NCBI RefSeq assembly: GCF_010994755.1 | Contig: NZ_WHSB02000006.1 | Coordinates: 186,001-250,000 of the forward strand | Direction of reading: 5' to 3' | From: Shinella lacus | GTDB lineage: Bacteria > Pseudomonadota > Alphaproteobacteria > Rhizobiales > Rhizobiaceae | Length of the DNA stretch: 64,000 nt | Shown here: positions 3,062-22,251 of the stretch, piece by piece | Numbering within the stretch: position 1 is the first letter of the stretch | Layout of the letters: each line of letters begins with the position of its first letter | Notes under the pieces: generated by a model | Seen by the model: the letters and a program-made list of their open reading frames with translations, nothing else | What the model was told of the DNA's origin: nothing | Databases searched by the model: none | Made by a program: the position numbers and the translations under genes

Positions 3062-5344
3062 ATGCCCGATCTTCTGCTTGAACTCCGCTCCGAGGAAATC
3101 CCCGCCCGCATGCAGCGCAAGGCGGCGGGTGATCTGAAGAAACTCGTCACGGACGCGCTGGTGGAGGCGGGCCTGACCTATGAGGGTGCGCGCGAATATT
3201 GGACGCCGCGGCGCCTGACGCTCGATATTCGCGGCCTCAATGCCCGCTCCAGCGATGTGCGCGAGGATATCAAGGGTCCGGCGACCTCGGCGCCCGAGCA
3301 GGCGATCCAGGGCTTTCTGCGCAAGGCGGGCCTTGCCTCGGTCGCTGAGGCCCATGTGCACAGCGATCCCAAGAAGGGCGATTTCTACGTCGCGCACACG
3401 GTCAAGCCGGGCCGGCCGGCCGATGAGATCATCGCCGAGGTGATGCCGGGCATCATCCGCAATTTCCCCTGGCCGAAGTCGATGCGCTCCGGTGCCGCCT
3501 CGGCAAAACCCGGCGCGCTGCGCTGGGTGCGCCCGCTGCAATCGATCGTCTGCACCTTCGGCTCGGAGACGGAAGAGACGCGCGTCGTACCCTTCGAGGT
3601 CGACGGGCTCGTGGCCGGCAACGTCACCTACGGCCACCGCTTCCATGCGCCGGACGCGATCACCGTGCGCCGCTTCGAGGACTATTCCGCCAATCTCGAA
3701 AAGGCGAAGGTCGTGCTCGATGCCGAGCGCCGCAAGCAGATCATCGCGACGGACGCCAACAACATCGCCTTTGCCAACGGCCTTGAACTGGTCGAGGACG
3801 AGGGCCTGCTGGAGGAAGTCTCCGGCCTCGTCGAATGGCCGCAGGTGCTGATGGGCACGTTCGAGGAGGAATTCTTGGCGATCCCGTCGGAAATCATCCG
3901 CCTGACCATCAAGACCAACCAGAAATGTTTCGTCACCCGCAAGCCAGGCGCCGACACGCTCTCCAACCACTTCATCCTCGTCTCCAACATCGAGGCGAAG
4001 GACGGCGGCAAAGAGATCGTGCACGGCAACGGAAAGGTCGTGCGCGCCCGCCTGTCGGACGCAAAACACTTCTGGCAGCGCGACCAGCGCGACCTGCCCG
4101 ACCTCGATACGCTGAAGGCATCGGCCGAAAAGTTCGGCCTCGATCTCGCAAAGCCGCTCGACCAGCGCATGGCGAAGCTCGACGCGCTGAACGTGACCTT
4201 CCATGCCAAGCTCGGCACGCAGGGTGCGCGCGTCGAACGCATCCGTAAGCTCGCTGCCGAACTCGCCAAGGTGACGGGCGCTGATCTGGTGCTCGTCGAC
4301 CGTGCCGTGGTGCTCGCGAAAGCGGACCTGCGCACCGAAGCCGTCGGCGAATTCCCCGAACTCCAGGGTATCATGGGCCGCAAATACGCTCTCCTCCAGG
4401 GCGAGGACGCTGCGGTCGCCGAGGCGATCGAGGATCACTGGAAGCCGAACGGCCCCTCCGACCGTCTGCCGGGCGACAAGATCGGCGTGACCGTGGCGCT
4501 TGCCGACAAGCTGGATACGCTGACGGGCTTCTGGGCGATCGACGAGAAGCCGACCGGCTCGAAGGACCCCTATGCGCTGCGCCGCGCCGCACTCGGCGTG
4601 GTTCGAATGCTTCTGGAGCGGGGCATTAGGCTTTCCCTGCGCTCACAACTTCTTGAACTCAATCTAGAATGGTATCCGCAAGCGGCGCGTGAAGATGCTC
4701 GCGCTTTGTTGGGTTCGATATCACCCTTGTACGGGCGTTCTTCTCTGGAAGAAGCCGCTTTGCATGAGCGGTTGGTTGAAGGCGATAAATTCAACAATGG
4801 TAAGTTTGTCGCGTATCCGTCCTACTACTCGGTACTTCACTTCTTCCACGATCGCCTGAAGGTCTACCTCCGCGATCTCGGCGCCCGCCACGACCTGATC
4901 GACGCCGTGCTGACGCCGGAGGCCGACGACCTGCTGATGGTCGCCCGCCGCGTCGAAGCGCTGACGGCGTTCATCACCTCGGAAGACGGCCAGAACCTGC
5001 TTGCCGGCACCAAGCGCGCAACGCAGCTGCTCGCCGCCGAAGAGAAGAAGGGCACCGTCGTCGAAGGCGCCGTCTCGGCCGATCTCTTGAAGCTCGACGC
5101 CGAAAAGGCGCTCTACGCCGCCGTGGAAACCGCCTCGAAGGAGGCGGCCGCCGCCGTCGCCCGTGAGGACTTCCGCTCCGCCATGGAAGCGCTCTCGGCG
5201 CTGCGCGCGCCGGTCGACCAGTTCTTCACCGACGTGCTCGTCAACGACGAGGACCCGGCCATTCGCGCCAACCGTCTGGCACTCCTCGCCGCCATCCGCG
5301 CGGCCACGGGCACAGTGGCGGATTTCTCCAAGATCGCGGGATAA
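3062..5344 (+). CDS. glyS: Glycine--tRNA ligase beta subunit
   Basis: The beta subunit of the bacterial alpha2beta2 glycyl-tRNA synthetase, needed for tRNA recognition during glycylation. The N-terminus [17 protein letters not shown] is diagnostic, which is why the ATG at this position is preferred over a GTG nine bases earlier. The tRNA-binding C-terminal domain ([22 protein letters not shown]) is intact. At 760 residues it is longer than the roughly 690-700 I would expect in rhizobia. The extra length falls in a stretch (about 4606-4860) of only about 50% GC with unlike codon use, flanked by 65-72% GC. The reading frame is open throughout and the flanking anchors ([10 protein letters not shown] before, [12 protein letters not shown] after) are normal. 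The alpha-subunit gene glyQ is not in this window and may lie upstream of lemA. Confidence 0.97.
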
Positions 5345-5357
5345 GGGGAAGGCGCTG

Positions 5358-5873
5358 ATGCCGGGAAAAATCCTCATCAGCGCCTGCCTTGCCGGCCTGC
5401 CGGTCCGTTACAATGGCTCGGCGAAACCGCTCCTGCATGACGCCGTCGATCGCTGGCGGTCGCAGCGGCGGCTGGTGACGCTCTGTCCGGAGCTTGCGGG
5501 CGGCTTCCAGGTGCCACGTCCGCCGGCGGAGATCGAAGCGGGGCTCGATGGCGACGACGTGCTCGACGGGCGGGCGCGCGTGCTGGAGGTTTCCGGAGGG
5601 GATGTTTCGGCGGCCTATATCGACGGCGCGCGCATCGCGCTCGACGTGGCGCGGGAAAACGGCTGCTTGCATGCGCTCTTGATCGACGGCAGCCCGTCCT
5701 GCGGCTCCAGCTTCGTCTATGACGGCAGCTTTTCAGGTATAAGGCATGCGGGGCAGGGGGTGACGGCAGCGCTTTTGCGCCGCAACGGCATCGCCGTCTA
5801 TTCCGACCGTGAGGTCGACCAGCTCGTCAGCGATTTGGGAGAGGCCGGCCGACACGATTGCGCCCCCGCTTGA
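5358..5873 (+). CDS. DUF523 family protein
   Basis: A 171-residue DUF523 protein. The N-terminus ILISACLAGLPVRYNG and the later LIDGSPSCGSSFVYDG are the two conserved cysteine-containing motifs of the family; LVTLCPELAGGFQVPRPP lies between them. The conserved Cys residues suggest metal or Fe-S binding, but the biochemical role is unknown. The start is the ATG 13 bases after the glyS stop, preceded by an AAGG-type ribosome site, so the gene is probably cotranscribed with glyS. A longer frame exists inside glyS but does not match the family. Confidence 0.9.
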   Translation: MPGKILISACLAGLPVRYNGSAKPLLHDAVDRWRSQRRLVTLCPELAGGFQVPRPPAEIEAGLDGDDVLDGRARVLEVSGGDVSAAYIDGARIALDVARENGCLHALLIDGSPSCGSSFVYDGSFSGIRHAGQGVTAALLRRNGIAVYSDREVDQLVSDLGEAGRHDCAPA

Positions 5874-5953
5874 GGTCAGGGGCGCAAAACGTCCGCTTTC
5901 GCGGATTCCTGTCAGCCTGGAGGGACTGAGAGGCAGGGGTCTGCAGTATGCGG

Positions 5954-6430
5954 TCAGTTGAGGCGAAGTTCAAACCCTGCCGGATCAAACTCCCGTGAAG
6001 TCGCCATCGCGGCCGTCGCCGCGTCGCGGGCGGCAGTGCCGTCGAGCGCGCCGGTCTTCGCGCCCGCATCGACGGTTTCCGTCGCCGTCGCCTTCTCGTC
6101 CAGCGGCGTTTCGGCGTCGGCAGCCTGCACCGTCTCGGCCGGGGCCTTGCTCACGAAGAGCACGGGCGAGCCGCCCATCCAGGCTTCGGTGCGGAACATC
6201 TTGCGTTCGCCGTTCTGCTCGCGGATCTCCACTTTTTGCGTGCCGGGCTCGATGGCGTCGACATGGTAGGTGGCGGATTTGGCCTTCGGCTTCAGCGCCG
6301 GGCAATCCTCGCAGCGGATCGTCGCGACGCTGGTGCCGTCGGCGGTGGCGCTGGCGAGCGGTTCGATCGAACCCGCAAAGGCCGGGGCGGCGAGAAGCAT
6401 CAGGGCAAGGGTCGGCAGCAGGGTACGCAT
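5954..6430 (-). CDS. HPE1-like exported protein of unknown function
   Basis: A 158-residue protein with a clear signal peptide (MRTLLPTLALMLLAAPAFAG). A compact domain follows that contains a CEDCP pair of cysteines (about residues 40-43) and the phrase TEAWMGGSPVLFVSK. The second half is low-complexity Ala/Thr-rich, before a conserved-looking tail FDPAGFELRLN. I associate this architecture with the rhizobial family named after a plant-virulence-effector HPE1-like domain; that name is from memory and implies no proven role here. It is probably periplasmic or secreted. Its ribosome-binding site lies inside a 7-base-pair hairpin (see separate entry). It lies downstream of purD on the same strand, with about 107 bases between. 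Confidence 0.75.
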   Translation of the reverse strand: MRTLLPTLALMLLAAPAFAGSIEPLASATADGTSVATIRCEDCPALKPKAKSATYHVDAIEPGTQKVEIREQNGERKMFRTEAWMGGSPVLFVSKAPAETVQAADAETPLDEKATATETVDAGAKTGALDGTAARDAATAAMATSREFDPAGFELRLN

Positions 6431-6440
6431 GAAACGGTTC

Positions 6441-6458
6441 TCCCTCAGGGTTGAGGGA
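6441..6458 (-). promoter_or_regulatory. Hairpin covering the ribosome-binding site of the HPE1-like gene
   Basis: On the minus strand TCCCTCA, a four-base loop and TGAGGGA form a perfect 7-base-pair hairpin. The 3' arm is the Shine-Dalgarno sequence (GAGGGA), ten bases before the ATG at 6430. The hairpin would hide the ribosome site, so it may limit translation. A role as a weak terminator for purD is less likely because no T-run follows. Confidence 0.4.
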
Positions 6459-6537
6459 AGAATAGCGCCCGCCGGTTACGGTCCCGTCAGGGGAAATGGT
6501 AAACTTTGAACGACCACGCGTTTTTTATGGGCCGGAT

Positions 6538-7809
6538 TCAGCCGTTTTCACGCTCGACGGCGCGCCAGCCGATGTCGCGGCGGCAGAAACCATTCTGCCA
6601 TTCCACCCGGTCGAGCGCCTGGTAAGCCGCCTTTTGCGCCTCGGCGACCGTCGGTGCGACGGCCGTGACGTTGAGCACGCGCCCGCCGGTCGCGACGAGC
6701 TGGCCGTCCTTCAGGCCTGTGCCGGCATGAAACACTTTCGTGGCAGCGTCATCGGCCGGCAGCGAGAGGATCGGCGTGTTCTTCTCGTAAGCGCCGGGAT
6801 AACCCTTGGAGGCCATGACGACGGTGAGCGCCGGGGCGTCGCGCCAGGCGGCGGAAACCGTGTCGAGCCGGCCGGTGGCAGCCGCATGCAGGATGGGCAG
6901 CAGATCGCTTTCGAGCCGCATCATCAGCACCTGGCATTCCGGATCGCCGAACCGCACATTGTATTCGATGAGCTCGGGGCCTTTGGCGGTGATCATCAGT
7001 CCGGCGAAGAGCACGCCCTGGAACGCATGGCCATCCGCCGCCATGCCGCGGATCGTCGGCTCGATGATCTCCTGCATCGTGCGCGCGACCATCTCCGGCG
7101 TCATGACGGGGGCCGGCGAATAGGCGCCCATGCCGCCGGTGTTGGGGCCGGTATCGCCGTCGCCAACGCGCTTGTGGTCCTGCGCAGAGGCGAGCGGCAG
7201 CGCGTTCACGCCGTCGCAGAGGCAGAAGAAGCTCGCCTCCTCGCCATCGAGGAAGGCTTCCACCACGACTTCCGCACCCGCCGCGCCAAAGGCGCCATCA
7301 AAGCAGTCGGCAACGGCGGCCAGCGCCTCGTCGAGCGTCATGGCGACCGTCACGCCCTTGCCGGCGGCAAGCCCGTCGGCCTTGATGACGATCGGCGCAC
7401 CCTCCGCCTCGACATAGGCCTTGGCGGCGGCGGCATCGGTGAAACGCTGATAGGCGCCGGTTGGAATGTCGTATTTGGCGCAGAGGTCCTTGGTAAAACC
7501 CTTGGAGCCTTCGAGCTGTGCCGCGGCGGCCGACGGGCCGAAGACATCGATGCCGTCAGCGCGAAGCGCATCGGCAATGCCCGCGACCAGCGGCGCTTCC
7601 GGCCCGACCACCAGGAAGGTCACGCCGTTTTCCTTGCAGAAGGCGGAGACGGCGGCGTGGTCGTCGATATTGAGGGAAACGAGCGTCGCGCATTCGGCGA
7701 TGCCGGGATTGCCGGGGGCGGCATAGAGCGTGGTGAGGAGGGGGGATTGCGCCAGCTTCCAGGCCAGAGCGTGCTCGCGTCCGCCCGATCCGATCAACAG
7801 AACCTTCAT
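6538..7809 (-). CDS. purD: Phosphoribosylamine--glycine ligase
   Basis: GAR synthetase, the second step of purine biosynthesis: ATP-dependent joining of glycine to phosphoribosylamine in the cytoplasm. The 423-residue protein has the diagnostic start [19 protein letters not shown], the ATP-grasp region ([13 protein letters not shown]), the signature RFGDPECQ, and the C-terminal domain starting near residue 320 ([13 protein letters not shown]). The start is placed at the ATG that gives the canonical N-terminus; another ATG two codons upstream is possible. Length and all motifs are normal. No other purine gene is adjacent. Confidence 0.97.
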
Positions 7810-7884
7810 GCCCATACCCTCGATCCGTCCTTGGTTGTTGGCGGGTTAAGGGGATGGGGCTGAAAGGTCAAGGGTTGCGCGGCG

Positions 7885-8124
7885 TCAGAGCGTCGCCGCG
7901 CCCTTTTCCGGTGTGCCCCGGCCGAGATTTTCAAGCTCGGTGTCGATCAGGTGCACGTCCTCGTACCAGCCGTCATCCTCCACCATCGCGCTTTCGCTGG
8001 CGGCGCGTTGCAGGGCGCGGGCCTCGGTGCGCAGCTTTTCCAGCTGGGCTATCTTCTCCTTGCGCGAAAGCCCCTCGTCGGAGCGGATTGCCTGCAGCTT
8101 CAGTTCCATCGTGCTGACGGTCAT
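7885..8124 (-). CDS. Small conserved-looking helical protein, function unknown
   Basis: A 79-residue protein, MTVSTMELKLQAIRSDEG onward, rich in charged residues and predicted to be largely helical, possibly coiled coil in residues 20-45. The start is the ATG with a good AAGGAG ribosome site 7 bases upstream; the longer open frame upstream has no support. It ends about 75 bases upstream of the purD start and is on the same strand, so the two may share a transcript. I do not recognise a family with a known function. Strong codon bias typical of the window and the ribosome site make it a likely real gene. Confidence 0.7.
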   Translation of the reverse strand: MTVSTMELKLQAIRSDEGLSRKEKIAQLEKLRTEARALQRAASESAMVEDDGWYEDVHLIDTELENLGRGTPEKGAATL

Positions 8125-8293
8125 CGGGAAACTCCTTGTTTCGTCTCGCAGAAAACGCAGACTGGGGCGAATCGTTCCTATCGACCGACCCGGCGGATGG
8201 TTAGCGAAACGGTAATGAAAGGGGGCTAATGTTGACGCAATCAAAGGTTTCGGCAGCCCGCGGCGGACCTGCCGGTGAAGCGAGGATTGTGTT

Positions 8294-9103
8294 TTGAGTA
8301 TCCGTGTTTCGACCGCAATGACTGCGGCCGCTCTCCTTTTTGCGCCCGTTTCGGCCCTTGCCGGCGAAGGCGGTTATTTCTGGTCCGGGGATTGGTATCT
8401 GAAGGTCGGCGCTGCCGGCTTTGCCGCGCCGCGCTACGAGGGCGCGAAAAAATACCTGTTCCAGGTCACCCCGATGATCTCGCTCGGCAAGGCCGGCAGC
8501 ACGGTGCGTTTCTCCTCGCGCAACGACAACCCGTCCTTCGCCTTGATCGACAATGGCGGTTTTCGTGCGGGCGCCACCGGCAAGCTCATCATGCCGCGTG
8601 ACGACGACGATTCGAAGGACCTGCGCGGCCTGACGCCGGTGAAGTTCGGCGGCGAACTCGGCGGCTTCGCCGAAGCCTACCCGACCGACTGGCTGCGCGT
8701 GCGCGGCGAAGTGCGCCACGGTATCCGCAGCCATGACGGCATCGTCGCCGATGTTGCCGCGGACGCCTTCGTCGACGTGCGGCCGGACGTGCGCATTTCC
8801 GCAGGCCCCCGCGTGACGCTCGCCTCGAACGACTATATGGACACCTATTACGGCGTGAACCGCAACCAGGTCGCCAAATCCGGCCTCGCCGCCTACGATC
8901 CGGACGGCGGCATCCATTCCGTCGGCGCGGGTGCGGCGATCACCTGGCAGGTCAACGAGAAGATCGAAACGAGCGCCTTTGCCGAATACAAGCGCCTCGT
9001 CGGCGACGCGGCCAAGTCCAGCCTCGTCAAAGAGCGCGGCGACCGCGACCAGCTGCTGATCGGCCTGTCCGCCACCTACCGCTTCGATTTTACGGTGCCT
9101 TGA
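8294..9103 (+). CDS. MipA/OmpV family outer-membrane protein
   Basis: A 269-residue outer-membrane beta-barrel of the MipA/OmpV family. It has a signal peptide ending near SALAGEGG, then GDWYLKVGAAGFAAPRYEG, and it ends in a beta-strand with a terminal aromatic-rich segment (YRFDFTVP). Members act as scaffold or porin-like proteins; MipA of E. coli binds murein hydrolase and synthase, but the role here is not known. The chosen start is TTG, with GAGG eight bases upstream. An ATG eight codons further in would also leave a signal peptide, so the start is open to question. It is divergent from the small gene at 7885-8124. Confidence 0.88.
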   Translation: MSIRVSTAMTAAALLFAPVSALAGEGGYFWSGDWYLKVGAAGFAAPRYEGAKKYLFQVTPMISLGKAGSTVRFSSRNDNPSFALIDNGGFRAGATGKLIMPRDDDDSKDLRGLTPVKFGGELGGFAEAYPTDWLRVRGEVRHGIRSHDGIVADVAADAFVDVRPDVRISAGPRVTLASNDYMDTYYGVNRNQVAKSGLAAYDPDGGIHSVGAGAAITWQVNEKIETSAFAEYKRLVGDAAKSSLVKERGDRDQLLIGLSATYRFDFTVP

Positions 9104-18171: not shown

Positions 18172-18432
18172 GTGGCGAGCACCCCATCCTAGCGCCTTGA
18201 TCGCTGGGAAGTTTATGCAAACGACGTTAAACAATCCTTTCCTGTCCGCTCCCCATTCCTTGCAGGCAAGGGCACCGGGTCGCAATATGACAAGCGCATG
18301 ATCGTGAGCAGCAAACTGCCAAGGGGATGGGCACCCTGCCGCAAAGCTAGGCATATCACCCTGACATATATGCAGAAATCTTGGCGTTCCGCTTTTTAAC
18401 CACGCGAAAATCCTGTCGCCAAATCATGATGG

Positions 18433-18451
18433 CATGTCGTTTTTCGACATG
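18433..18451. other. Perfect hairpin in the gbcA-like leader region
   Basis: CATGTCG, five T, CGACATG: a perfect 7-base-pair stem about 40 bases before the cobalamin riboswitch. It resembles half of the type A palindromic repeat. Its role is unknown; it may be a repeat remnant. The surrounding stretch 18172-18484 holds no other feature I can support. Confidence 0.4.
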
Positions 18452-18488
18452 TCGCGCGACGATTCTTGCGGTTAGATAAGCACACTCA

Positions 18489-18690
18489 AGGTGCCAAGTT
18501 CCCGAAAGGAGCCTGGAGAATTGGGAAGCCGGTTAAAATCCGGCGCTGCCCCCGCAACGGTGTTGGAGCAAGACGCGGCATACGTCACTGGACGGGAGGT
18601 CTGGGAAGGCGCCGCGACGGTTCGAAGAGGAATGACCCGACAAGGTCATGCCCCGCAGAACGCTCCTCAGCCCGGAAACCAGCCTGGAGA
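18489..18690 (+). ncRNA. Cobalamin (B12) riboswitch
   Basis: The element has the ordered landmarks of the cobalamin riboswitch: AGGTGCC, then GGGAAGCCGG...CCGGC, the strongly conserved GCTGCCCCCGCAACGGT (B12 box, from 18545), GTCACTGG, GGGAAGGCG, and a closing AGCCCGGAAACCAGCCTG (18668-18685) equivalent to the usual GTCAGGAGACCTGCC end. It binds adenosyl- or methylcobalamin and normally turns off the downstream gene when B12 is present. It precedes the gbcA-like gene by about 120 bases, on the same strand. Confidence 0.95.
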
Positions 18691-18711
18691 AACGATCGTG
18701 ACTGGCTGCGG

Positions 18712-18767
18712 CGGGCGGCTGGGAAGCGTGCATTCCGTGCGGTTCGCCGCCCGGATGCCGTCTTCTT
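18712..18767 (+). terminator. Possible expression-platform terminator of the B12 riboswitch
   Basis: CGGGCGGC (18712-18719) pairs with GCCGCCCG (18746-18753) around a nested GGAA/TTCC hairpin. It is followed by a pyrimidine run TCTTCTT. It lies between riboswitch and start codon, where a switchable terminator is expected. The T-run is broken, so control of translation initiation is an alternative. Confidence 0.45.
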
Positions 18768-18809
18768 CCGTGCGCCTCAGCCCCAATTTAGATTATCCGA
18801 GGATCCGGC

Positions 18810-20054
18810 ATGGACATTCGCAGCGACGTGCTCCGCAAGCTCAAGAACCGGCGCGATGGCTACAGCCTCGAGCAGGCCTTCTACATCGACCCCGACCACT
18901 ACAAGCTCGACATGGAGACGATCTGGTATCGCGACTGGCTGTTCATCGGCCATGATTGCGAGATCCCCAAGGCCGGCAATTATTTCACCGTCCAGGTCGG
19001 TGATTATCCCGTCGTCATCACGCGCGACCGCAAGGGCACGGTGCGCGCGCTGCACAATTCCTGTCGCCACCGCGGCTCGCGCGTCTGCAACCAGCAGAAG
19101 GGAACGTCGGCAAAACTCGTCTGTCCCTATCACCAGTGGACCTATGAACTCGACGGTTCCCTGCTCTTCGCCCGCCACATGGCCGAGGATTTCGACAAGA
19201 CGCAGCACAGCCTGAAGCCGATCCACTGCGAGACGGTCGGCGGCTACATCTTCATCTGCCTGGCCGATCAGGCGCCGGATTTCTCCGCCTTCCGCAATCT
19301 GGTCGAGCCCTATCTCGCGCGCCATCGCCTCGGCGAGACCAAGGTCGCCTTCGAAAGCACGATCATCGAGAAGGGCAACTGGAAGCTCGTCTGGGAAAAC
19401 AACCGCGAGTGCTATCACTGCGCCGCCAACCATCCGGAACTCTGCCGCACCTATCCGGAAGCCCCCAGTGCCACCGGCGTGCAGGGCGCCAAGGACGATC
19501 CCGTCATCGCCGAGCACTGGGCGAAATGCGAGGCCGCGGGCCTGCCGAGCGAATTCAGGATGTCGCCGACGGGCCAGTTCCGCGCCGCGCGCATGCCGCT
19601 CATCCAGGACGCCGAGAGCTATACCATGTCCGGTGCGCGCGCCGTCCAGCGCCCGCTGTCGAGCGACGTGCTGGAGAGCCATATCGGCACGCTGCTGCTC
19701 TTCCACTATCCGACGACGTGGAACCATGTGCTGGCCGACCATGCCATCACCTTCCGCGTGATCCCGCTCGGCCCCGAACGGACCCAGGTCACCACCAAGT
19801 GGCTCGTCAACAAGGATGCGGTGGAAGGCATCGACTATCGTCTCGACGAACTCACCCATGTCTGGACCGAGACCAACGACCAGGACCGTCGGATCGTCGA
19901 GGAAAACGCCTTCGGCATTCGCTCGCCCGCCTACCAGCCCGGCCCCTATTCGCCGGAGGACGAAGGCGGCGTCATGCAATTCGTCGAATGGTACGCCAAC
20001 TTCATGATCGAACGGCTCGACGGCGCCAAAAAGCCGCTCTCGCGGGTGGCCTGA
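18810..20054 (+). CDS. gbcA: Rieske oxygenase, glycine-betaine/stachydrine demethylase type
   Basis: The terminal oxygenase of a two-component Rieske system. The 414-residue protein has the Rieske 2Fe-2S motif (CRH near residue 86, CPYH near 106) and the mononuclear iron site NNRECYHCAANHPE near residue 200. Its N-terminus, with FYIDPDHYKLDMETIW, matches the GbcA/Stc2 branch that removes a methyl group oxidatively from glycine betaine or proline betaine, releasing formaldehyde. Substrate within this branch is not certain. The start follows a GAGGAT ribosome site. It is preceded by a cobalamin riboswitch and followed, one base after its stop, by its reductase, so it should be expressed mainly when B12 is scarce. 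Confidence 0.88.
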   Translation: MDIRSDVLRKLKNRRDGYSLEQAFYIDPDHYKLDMETIWYRDWLFIGHDCEIPKAGNYFTVQVGDYPVVITRDRKGTVRALHNSCRHRGSRVCNQQKGTSAKLVCPYHQWTYELDGSLLFARHMAEDFDKTQHSLKPIHCETVGGYIFICLADQAPDFSAFRNLVEPYLARHRLGETKVAFESTIIEKGNWKLVWENNRECYHCAANHPELCRTYPEAPSATGVQGAKDDPVIAEHWAKCEAAGLPSEFRMSPTGQFRAARMPLIQDAESYTMSGARAVQRPLSSDVLESHIGTLLLFHYPTTWNHVLADHAITFRVIPLGPERTQVTTKWLVNKDAVEGIDYRLDELTHVWTETNDQDRRIVEENAFGIRSPAYQPGPYSPEDEGGVMQFVEWYANFMIERLDGAKKPLSRVA

Positions 20055-20055
20055 C

Positions 20056-21153
20056 ATGACGGTCGCGAGCCATTTCCACCATTTCGACGAACTCTATCCG
20101 TGGAACGATCGCCAGCACCTGCTGGAATGCATCGCCGTGACGGCGGAGACGACGGATGTGATGACCTTCACCTTCCGCTCGGATCGCGACAACTGGTTCC
20201 GCTACCTGCCGGGCCAGTTCGTTACGCTGGAGCTGCCGGTGGCGCCGGACGATCCGGTGATGCGCACCTACACGCTGTCTTCGACGCCGTCGCGCCCCTT
20301 CGCCGTCTCCGTGACGGTGAAGGTGCAGAAGAATTCGATCGGCACGCGCTGGATGTTCGACAACCTGCGCCCCGGCGTGAAGCTCAAGGCCTTCGGCCCG
20401 CTCGGCGACTTTTCCTTCGTGCGCTATCCGGCGGAAAAGTATCTCTTCATCTCGGCCGGCTCCGGCGTGACGCCGATGATGTCGATGACGCGCTGGATGT
20501 CGGATTGCGCGCCGCAGTCGGATGTCGCCTTCGTCACCTGCGCGCGCAAGCCGGAGGACCTGCTGTTCAAGGCGGAGCTCGAATGTCTCGCCGCCCACAT
20601 GCCGAACCTTGCGCTCGGTTTCGTGGTCGAGGGCCACAACCCGCGTGACGGCTGGCATGGCCTGCGCGGCCGCATCGATGCCGCCCGGCTCTCGCTGCTG
20701 GCGCCCGATTTCCGCGATCGCACCGTCTTCTGCTGTGGCCCGGAGCCGTTCATGCGCGGCGTGCGCGATATGCTGAAGGTCTGCGGCTTCAACATGGAGC
20801 GCTACCACGAGGAGAGCTTCCAGCCGGCCGCCGCACCCGCGCCCGAAGAACTCGCCATTCGCGGCGGCCCGGGCGAGGTGGACGCCGAGGCGATCTCCAC
20901 CGTCACCTTCACCATGGCCGGCAAGGACGCCAAGTGCCCGCCCGGCCAGACCATCCTGCAAACCGCCCGCGCGGCCGGCGTGCGCATCGGCGCCGCCTGC
21001 GAGGGCGGCCTGTGCGGCACCTGCCGGGTCATGAAGGTCTCGGGCGAAGTCGACATGCGCCACAACGGCGGCATCCTCGACGACGAGATCGAGGAAGGCT
21101 ACATCCTCGCCTGCTGCTCGCGCCCGATCGGGGATGTGTCGATCGAGGCGTGA
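20056..21153 (+). CDS. gbcB: Reductase partner of the Rieske demethylase (hybrid-cluster NAD(P) oxidoreductase type)
   Basis: A 365-residue electron-transfer protein feeding the gbcA-like oxygenase. It has an FAD-binding domain (RTYTLSSTPSRPF at about 74-86), an NAD(P)-binding domain (LFISAGSGVTPMMSMTRW near 132-150; FCCGPEPFM near 229) and a C-terminal plant-type 2Fe-2S ferredoxin domain with CEGGLCGTC near residues 315-323 and a last Cys in YILACCSRP. The domain order FAD-NAD-Fd is that of GbcB. Only one base separates it from the oxygenase stop, so the two are one transcript under the B12 riboswitch. All cofactor motifs are intact. Confidence 0.9.
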   Translation: MTVASHFHHFDELYPWNDRQHLLECIAVTAETTDVMTFTFRSDRDNWFRYLPGQFVTLELPVAPDDPVMRTYTLSSTPSRPFAVSVTVKVQKNSIGTRWMFDNLRPGVKLKAFGPLGDFSFVRYPAEKYLFISAGSGVTPMMSMTRWMSDCAPQSDVAFVTCARKPEDLLFKAELECLAAHMPNLALGFVVEGHNPRDGWHGLRGRIDAARLSLLAPDFRDRTVFCCGPEPFMRGVRDMLKVCGFNMERYHEESFQPAAAPAPEELAIRGGPGEVDAEAISTVTFTMAGKDAKCPPGQTILQTARAAGVRIGAACEGGLCGTCRVMKVSGEVDMRHNGGILDDEIEEGYILACCSRPIGDVSIEA

Positions 21154-21156
21154 AAC

Positions 21157-22251
21157 TCAGAAATCCTGGTAGTTCAACGGCGTCACGTCGACCACACGCT
21201 GGCCAAGCGCCGCAGTCGCCGCGCCCTTTGCGGCGAGGCCGGCGCGCACTTCGGCCGTTACCGTCACCGGGAACGACGCTGTCGTGCCGGAAGCGAGCGT
21301 GACGGCGCCCGTCGTCTGCGCCTCGGCGCCGATAGATGCGGCCGCTTCGACGGTCGCCTGCAGCGCGCCGCCGGTGGGGATGGAGGCTGTGAGCATCTCG
21401 TCCACGGGCTCGAAGGGTTTTTCCGGCACCAGGCCGCCGAAGGCCCAGGCCTTGCCGAGTGCGGCCTTGCTCATCGGCGCGACGTTGACGTCGATGTCGT
21501 TGAGCGCGCCCTTCACGCGGTAGGGGCAGCGGCGCTTCGAGCAGTTGACGCCGGCGGAGAACTGCCAGAGCGCATAATTGTCCCAGTTGCCCATCGGAAA
21601 GGCGCCCTCGATGCCCGGCTTGTAGCGGGCATACCAGAGCGGCAGACGCGACAGGATGCGGTATTCGTCGCGATGGGCGGCGATGTAACGCGCGGTCGAA
21701 TGGTTGGTGTAGAGCACCGGATAGCGGCCCGTGCGCGTCTTGATATGGCCGGCAAAAACCTGCGCATCCGCAAGCGACATGTAGGTGTCCGGATCGATGC
21801 CCTCGATATCCAGCACCATCATCTCGTCATCCTGCGGATTGGCATAGTCGAGGAAATGATTGGCCTGGTCGACCGGGTTGCCCGGTCGGGCGAGGTGATA
21901 GGCGCCCCAGAGCAGGCCCTTCGAGCGCGCGAGCAGCCGGCGGGTCTCGTAGAGTTCGCGGCTCACCGCATATTTGCGCCACATGGTCTTGCAGTGCGCC
22001 ACCGTATCGCCGCTGTGCTCGCCCTTGCAGCTGTAGCTTTCCGGCAGGCCGTCGGAGGCCTTCGAGATGAAGCCGGCGATGCGCTTGTCGGACAGCATCT
22101 CCGACCAGTCGATCTCGTTCAGCTCATAGGCATCGATGACGATGGCGTTTTCCGGCTTTCTCCACGGTTCCACATCGACCGCGCGGGCCGAAAAGGGCAG
22201 GGCCGCCAGCAGGATGAGGGCCGCCAGGCCGGAAAGATGCTTCGGGTTCAT
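21157..22251 (-). CDS. Secreted GH25-family muramidase (lysozyme-like)
   Basis: A 364-residue exported protein: signal peptide at residues 1-24 (LAALILLAALPFSARA) and then a glycoside hydrolase family 25 domain. The catalytic DxE pair lies in MVLDIEGIDPD near residue 147. GAYHLARPGNPVDQANHFL and YPVLYTNHSTARY are further family motifs. The enzyme would cut the glycan chain of peptidoglycan in the periplasm or outside. The last 90 residues are an Ala/Thr-rich tail without a recognised domain. It is convergent with gbcB, whose stop is four bases away. The ATG at 22251 gives the proper signal peptide. Confidence 0.9.
   Translation of the reverse strand: MNPKHLSGLAALILLAALPFSARAVDVEPWRKPENAIVIDAYELNEIDWSEMLSDKRIAGFISKASDGLPESYSCKGEHSGDTVAHCKTMWRKYAVSRELYETRRLLARSKGLLWGAYHLARPGNPVDQANHFLDYANPQDDEMMVLDIEGIDPDTYMSLADAQVFAGHIKTRTGRYPVLYTNHSTARYIAAHRDEYRILSRLPLWYARYKPGIEGAFPMGNWDNYALWQFSAGVNCSKRRCPYRVKGALNDIDVNVAPMSKAALGKAWAFGGLVPEKPFEPVDEMLTASIPTGGALQATVEAAASIGAEAQTTGAVTLASGTTASFPVTVTAEVRAGLAAKGAATAALGQRVVDVTPLNYQDF

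Follow-up and report, generated by a model that had tools for sequence, protein, structure and literature searches.

Leader and Operon

In the 64,000-nt stretch of the Shinella lacus genome analyzed here (contig NZ_WHSB02000006.1, positions 186,001 to 250,000; hereafter the window), a cobalamin (vitamin B12) riboswitch lies directly upstream of two genes resembling gbcA and gbcB, the oxygenase and reductase subunits of glycine betaine monooxygenase. This riboswitch and its relation to a second, cobalamin-dependent route of betaine demethylation are the subject of this study. The assembly has 7.04 Mb and an estimated contamination of 4.23%. The features of the locus are as follows.

18414..18439, + strand: two TGTCG half-sites spaced 21 bp (at 18414 and 18435, with a third at 18450), candidate AraC-type activator site, from the leader comparison
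18472..18477, + strand: TTAGAT, possible -10 element overlapping the start of the Rfam match, from the leader comparison
18472..18701, + strand: cobalamin riboswitch aptamer (RF00174), Rfam covariance match with 99.1 bits and E 1.5e-23
18703..18721, + strand: L13-type hairpin with loop GGCGG, presumed kissing partner of L5 (GCTGCCCCCGCAAC)
18767..18814, + strand: hairpin over the Shine-Dalgarno sequence GAGGA (18799-18803) and the ATG, proposed OFF structure from a predicted fold with weak statistical support
18810..20054, + strand: gbcA-like gene, Rieske oxygenase subunit of a quaternary amine N-demethylase, 414 aa, with Pfam Rieske and Ring_hydroxyl_A domains
20056..21153, + strand: gbcB-like gene, reductase subunit, 365 aa, with Pfam FAD, NAD, and Fer2 (2Fe-2S) domains

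A reading made from the letters alone (the sequence-only reading) had placed a near-canonical B12 riboswitch at 18489-18690, and the covariance search confirmed it. The match exceeded the gathering score of 31.5, covered the model over its full length (1-189), and was the sole Rfam family above its gathering score in the window. When 107 leaders were compared, a recognizable B12 box was found in 77, and an L13-type hairpin with 5-7 base pairs and a GGCGG, GGTGG, or GGAGG loop was found in 69, including that of the window. All 69 leaders differed from one another, and the stem covaried among them, with G-C/A-T and C-G/T-A/T-G changes. The possible switchable hairpin of the sequence-only reading is borne out insofar as an L13-type element is conserved, whose loop presumably contacts L5 as a kissing pair.

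The mode of control was examined by fold prediction. In many leaders the Shine-Dalgarno sequence and the start codon are predicted to be able to pair with upstream sequence. The mean accessibility of the Shine-Dalgarno sequence over the 69 leaders was 0.418, versus 0.465 after shuffling (p 0.012), and it was lower in 43 of them; without the L13 constraint the mean was 0.441, above the constrained proxy in just 36 of the 69. A transcription-terminator platform was rejected, as no terminator-like site was found in 18200-21300. Considering the missing terminator and the lower accessibility together, a translational mode, in which the bound state would mask the ribosome-binding site, is weakly preferred.

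The stop codon of the gbcA-like gene and the start codon of the gbcB-like gene are separated by one base. The domain architecture is that of GbcAB, with a Rieske and a catalytic domain in the first protein and an adjoining FAD/NAD/Fer2 reductase, and the best NCBIfam families of both proteins are the glycine betaine monooxygenase subunits (NF058607/NF058606). The equivalog cut-offs were missed by both (515.9 against 670 for GbcA and 377.6 against 500 for GbcB), so an assignment as GbcA and GbcB in the strict NCBIfam sense was rejected and the proteins are called GbcA/B-like. The GbcA cut-off is narrow, since eight other homologues, including those in the betaine clusters of Paracoccus and Azospirillum, scored 448.6-535.3 and also fell below it. 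Hence, the closely spaced gbcA-like and gbcB-like pair proposed from the sequence holds in spacing and domains, though not at the strict family level. Compared with GbcAB of Pseudomonas and Chromohalobacter, the window pair shares the Rieske oxygenase and the FAD/NAD/2Fe-2S reductase, with the best NCBIfam match in both subunits, and differs in its scores below the cut-offs and in being a two-gene operon behind a cobalamin riboswitch.

Conservation of the Riboswitch

The 80 best named relatives of the window gbcA were collected (the named set) and scanned with a sequence profile built from the eight cobalamin riboswitches of the Shinella genome; one locus (L068), which begins 41 nt before the gene, was left out as unassessable. 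The riboswitch was found directly upstream of gbcA in 68 of the 79 assessable relatives. A second set (the survey) comprised 121 Rhizobiaceae genomes, 46 of which contained gbcA at E up to 1e-150; the riboswitch preceded the gene in 28 and was missing in 18. As a check on the profile calls, Rfam was run on all 30 negatives, of which 12 came from the named set and 18 from the survey, and on some of the positives, namely 19 named loci, L102, L115, L117, three fdhA-linked genomes, and the window. In the named set all 19 positives were confirmed and none of the 12 negatives matched, and no riboswitch was found in any of the 18 survey negatives. The possibility that the riboswitch is an isolated relic of this single genome is therefore excluded.

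The window gene is 92-95% identical to those of seven Shinella records. Many gbcA loci share the neighbors glcD-like, tsaC, DUF6656, and GH25, and of the 11 riboswitch-less named loci that could be assessed, 9 keep tsaC and DUF6656, which indicates that the riboswitch was often lost in place. Three riboswitch-less survey genes are 54-58% identical and probably paralogues (G090 and G098, two of the three in genomes with MtgC, and G002, in a genome without it).

Co-occurrence with MtgB and MtgC

A cobalamin-dependent demethylase system for glycine betaine, MtgBCDE, has been reported in Sinorhizobium meliloti, as far as the available text of PMC12478193 goes. The Shinella genome encodes a corrinoid protein divergent to an MttB-family methyltransferase gene. 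The best NCBIfam family of this protein is MtgC, below the cut-off (215.3 against 370), and over 92% of its length it shares 93% identity with a cobalamin-binding protein of S. meliloti Ak57. The gene of the Ak57 protein has as neighbors an MttB-family gene, DUF1638, bmt, two metF-like genes, a methyltetrahydrofolate:cobalamin methyltransferase gene, and an ASKHA-domain gene. Besides the mtg locus, the Ak57 record carries the riboswitch-gbcAB locus.

If the oxygenase is a substitute, one would expect the riboswitch in genomes that encode the B12-dependent route as well, and this is what we found. In the survey, MtgC was encoded in 27 of the 28 riboswitch-bearing gbcA genomes, but in only 3 of the 18 riboswitch-less ones. 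The counts for MtgB were the same (27/28 and 3/18), which is no independent test because MtgB adjoins MtgC. In the named set MtgC was tested in 50 of the 80 loci, comprising every assessable riboswitch-less locus (11) and 39 of the 68 with a riboswitch, and it was present in 4 and 35 genomes, respectively. After removal of 7 named loci with gbcA identical to that of survey genomes, the two sets were merged into 89 non-redundant gbcA-bearing Rhizobiaceae, in which MtgC accompanied the riboswitch in 58 of 62 cases and was present without it in 7 of 27 (Fisher p 1.6e-10); 58 genomes had both, 20 neither, 4 the riboswitch alone, and 7 MtgC alone. The suggestion of the sequence-only reading that the operon is a B12-independent stand-in for cobalamin-dependent use of betaine gains support from this distribution and from the presence of both MtgB and MtgC orthologues, the B12-dependent counterpart, in the Shinella genome itself.

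The association is specific, since metH is kept in all 16 MtgC-less gbcA genomes of the survey and at least one other cobalamin riboswitch is kept in all 18 riboswitch-less ones; metH was accordingly rejected as the gene that the riboswitch tracks. That MtgBC and the GbcAB-like enzyme share one job in the cell is suggested by the neighbors of relatives and by the gbcA tree, considered below. The two systems presumably act on the same substrate; what distinguishes MtgBCD(E), a demethylase and methionine synthase according to the accessible part of PMC12478193, is that the methyl group is transferred by a corrinoid without oxygen, unlike in the GbcAB-like enzyme.

Substrate of the Oxygenase

Three riboswitch-less relatives of the window gene, 84.6% (G097), 69.9% (Paracoccus pTAV3), and 61.7% (an Agrobacterium plasmid) identical to it, adjoin betaine uptake genes, GlxA-type regulators, or fdhA, and the window gene falls into one clade with them (93/93, not starred). 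More distant homologues (54-60% identical) have mixed neighbors. Based on the betaine-cluster neighbors and the shared clade, glycine betaine is the likeliest substrate.

The same switch logic could serve another substrate, either proline betaine (stachydrine) or a different quaternary amine, with the riboswitch backing up another MttB-family methyltransferase. Among solved structures, the oxygenase matches 3n0q, 3vca, and 4qup best, all of them strongly, and the Shinella genome contains four MttB-family genes; the GbcA score below the NCBIfam cut-off points the same way. 3vca and 4qup, which we take to be stachydrine demethylases, are homologous to the window oxygenase (529 bits). However, the S. 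meliloti pSymA gene, presumably that of the 3vca protein, is 56.7% identical and lies on a separate branch outside the clade of the window gene, where it groups with two other entries (99/97, starred). The betaine-cluster setting of the three relatives and the tracking of MtgB and MtgC by the riboswitch also speak against a different substrate, and we regard this alternative as unlikely.

Evolution of the Association

The riboswitch might instead be an inherited leftover without a present role, its association with MtgC reflecting nothing but shared ancestry. The synteny of the locus in many genomes, with tsaC and DUF6656 kept even where the riboswitch is gone, would fit such a history. The traits were compared on a gbcA protein tree of a quick kind, used in place of a species tree. 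Each of them (riboswitch and MtgC) changes at least 12 times on this tree, and in a Pagel-type likelihood test (our own script, six random starts per model) the dependent model was preferred over the independent one, with a likelihood ratio statistic of 33.5 (p 9e-7), rising to 44.0 when degenerate riboswitches were coded as absent. A strict independent-pairs test gave a median above 0.05, which would favor a leftover.

Degenerate forms were found in MtgC-less lineages. Four riboswitches in such genomes (G094, L049, L052, and L065) scored 56.3-61.3 bits and had neither the CCACTG...GGGAAGG core nor the L13 stem (G094 was judged from L050, whose gbcA is identical), while 15 other Rfam-scored riboswitches of the named set had 91.2-114.1 bits. 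In L080 and L082, also without MtgC, both aptamer ends are present and the middle is missing, as judged by eye. The aptamer of the MtgC-bearing L097 looks deleted in the same manner, and the riboswitch of L117 scored low (68.8 bits) in a genome that has MtgC. A relic was ruled out on conservation, covariation, and co-occurrence: the stem covaries in 69 leaders, the traits changed repeatedly on the tree, and decay is seen where MtgC is missing, L097 notwithstanding. An inherited leftover is thus very improbable, and the association between riboswitch and MtgC is strong, yet not beyond dispute.

Cobalamin Regulon and Formaldehyde

The eight cobalamin riboswitches of the Shinella genome precede metE, ribonucleotide reductase genes with a small-chain gene, bluB, cbtA, a periplasmic binding protein gene, metH, the gbcAB-like operon, and fdhA. 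The last encodes a glutathione-independent formaldehyde dehydrogenase (712.1 bits against a cut-off of 636.95) and is followed by a DUF6925 gene (L012 4431-5528, - strand). Rieske N-demethylation is expected to yield formaldehyde, which makes fdhA a natural partner of the oxygenase. Its release by GbcAB is stated in the available text of PMC12478193.

At E up to 1e-150 fdhA is rare, occurring in 14 of the 121 Rhizobiaceae genomes. It lies behind a cobalamin riboswitch in all three fdhA genomes that have MtgC (G000, which is the Shinella genome, G106, and G063), and no riboswitch was found near it in any of the 11 fdhA genomes without MtgC, of which all were scanned with our profile and 10 with Rfam (G113 with the profile alone). 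The G063 operon (L164 1569-4283) consists of a riboswitch, a betaine-homocysteine methyltransferase (BHMT) gene with 212 bits to BHMT in PDB, and fdhA. BHMT as a general member of the regulon was rejected, as it occurs at E up to 1e-60 in only 1 of the 121 genomes. G106 has metE, nrd-like genes, fdhA, and a DUF6925 gene in succession, each behind its own riboswitch; that of the DUF6925 gene (L165 2090-3127) is at 3675-3876 on the - strand.

That the oxygenase serves cobalamin synthesis or salvage, with the riboswitch providing ordinary feedback, can be dismissed as barely credible. According to the accessible part of PMC3766115, this RNA classically controls genes for the synthesis and uptake of cobalamin, but relatives of the oxygenase lie in betaine gene clusters, the 18 gbcA genomes that lack the riboswitch at gbcA keep other cobalamin riboswitches, and fdhA of the Shinella genome is also behind one.

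Some further arrangements were noticed. The nrd genes under riboswitch control have another Rieske oxygenase paralogue, 34% identical, just in front of them (L013 3969-5303, G000:C2). Without a systematic search, gbcA was seen within ~7 kb of metH in G104, G106, G042, G014, and G117, and within ~7 kb of metE in G033 (L159).

Promoter Region and a Candidate Activator

No sigma-70 consensus promoter was found at the locus, and this candidate was abandoned; the TTAGAT element came from the comparison of leaders instead. It occurs in 55 of the 107 leaders, all 55 of which have TGTCG within 80 nt upstream. The TGTCG motif was spotted by eye and counted afterwards. At least two copies, mostly spaced 21 bp, are found within this distance in 52 of the 55 leaders with TTAGAT (52 of all 107), versus 0 of 2140 mononucleotide shuffles. 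TTAGAT is also kept in several riboswitch-less leaders, and the TGTCG direct repeats likewise occur with or without the riboswitch, which suggests an AraC-type activator binding the paired TGTCG sites as a second, substrate-linked control. The GlxA-type regulator of the Shinella genome closest to the Paracoccus one matches it with 44% identity and is interrupted within the match by one in-frame stop; the operon is therefore left without a named regulator.

A Probable Cobalamin-Controlled Choice of Demethylase

Taken together, these results make it probable that the leader acts as a cobalamin OFF-switch and that its target is a GbcAB-type substitute for MtgBC, independent of B12 and releasing formaldehyde. 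The riboswitch, its conservation, its joint occurrence with MtgBC, and the second riboswitch in front of fdhA are observed; the response to cobalamin, the translational mode, the glycine betaine substrate, and the type of activator are inferred. When cobalamin is plentiful, the aptamer would bind it, the L5-L13 contact would form, and the ribosome-binding site would be masked, while MtgB and MtgC would demethylate glycine betaine and pass the methyl group to folate. When cobalamin is short, the operon would be translated and the oxygen-dependent GbcAB-like enzyme would take the methyl group off as formaldehyde, which in the Shinella genome could be disposed of by fdhA from behind its own riboswitch. 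Transcription is probably also set by the AraC-type activator at the paired TGTCG sites.

Several observations weigh against this proposal. None of the NCBIfam cut-offs is reached, be it for GbcA, GbcB, MtgC, or the MttB-family model, and the Shine-Dalgarno masking signal is weak over the 69 leaders. MtgC is encoded in the 7 riboswitch-less genomes of the merged set noted above. The fdhA gene of this type is absent in 24 of the 28 riboswitch-bearing survey genomes (other formaldehyde-clearing routes were not searched for), among them G075, the other survey genome of the same genus. One riboswitch of the Shinella genome (L014 4248-4464) lies directly upstream of the B12-dependent metH (4822-8637, G000:C53), a misfit with the rule that the riboswitch marks B12-free substitutes; a riboswitch precedes metH in 5 of the 30 best metH loci. 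In the independent-pairs test on supported branches, 7 pairs were usable, on average 4.3 or 4.5 of them concordant and 0 discordant, with a median p of 0.125 or 0.0625. The order of losses in the fitted models depends on the coding: with degenerate riboswitches counted as present, MtgC is lost fast after the riboswitch, and with these counted as absent, the riboswitch is lost fast after MtgC, with two rates at the upper bound.

The closest analogs are the riboswitches of metE and of the B12-independent ribonucleotide reductase, both found in the Shinella genome. They belong to the same RNA family, and there too a B12-free substitute is made only when B12 is short. The differences are that the target here is catabolic, an oxygenase with no relation to the enzyme whose place it would take, that the methyl group would end as formaldehyde rather than as methyl-folate, and that some genomes have a detoxifying gene behind a riboswitch of the same family as well.

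The riboswitch had been seen before. A cobalamin riboswitch upstream of S. meliloti SMc00982 was listed in 2007 (PMC2245857) and in 2008 (PMC2573895, Table 3), with no interpretation in the accessible text of either, and the gene was called a likely dioxygenase in that of PMC2848018. Because an S. meliloti record has the matching gene order, the riboswitch, and gbcA, SMc00982 is taken as the orthologue of the window gbcA-like gene, by gene order and not by the sequence of strain 1021. The statement of the sequence-only reading that it knew of no betaine Rieske oxygenase described as a B12 riboswitch target thus needs qualification, as the RNA had been listed. None of the titles or abstract openings listed by searches of the open-licence literature, supplements being unsearched, describes a cobalamin riboswitch ahead of a betaine Rieske demethylase gene or of fdhA, and no such description was found in the available portions of PMC12478193, PMC3766115, PMC2573895, PMC2245857, PMC2848018, PMC4809877, PMC4239095, and PMC4465626; the sole riboswitch mention in the available text of PMC12478193 is a reference title on the glycine riboswitch. 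To these listings the present analysis adds the likely identity of the target, its distribution, its joint occurrence with MtgBC, and fdhA as a partner.

For the family as a whole, we give about even chances to a broader view, in which cobalamin would decide between two modes of one-carbon catabolism in Rhizobiaceae. In its presence, MtgBCD would transfer methyl groups by way of a corrinoid to folate; in its absence, GbcAB would demethylate with oxygen to formaldehyde. In some genomes fdhA, and in single ones BHMT or DUF6925, would be drawn in by riboswitches of their own. Together with the AraC-type activator, the operon would act as an AND gate (methylated amine present, B12 absent), and the riboswitch and MtgBC would be lost together, leaving GbcAB as a standing route.

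If this is true, the logic of B12 riboswitches reaches beyond biosynthetic isozymes to an entire mode of catabolism and, in some genomes, also to the toxic by-product of that mode. It would suggest a reason why rhizobia have two betaine demethylases, and it would offer an evolutionary example of a riboswitch whose presence tracks that of the enzyme backed up, on this view, by its target. Moreover, vitamin status would become a testable control point for the use of a major plant and soil osmolyte.

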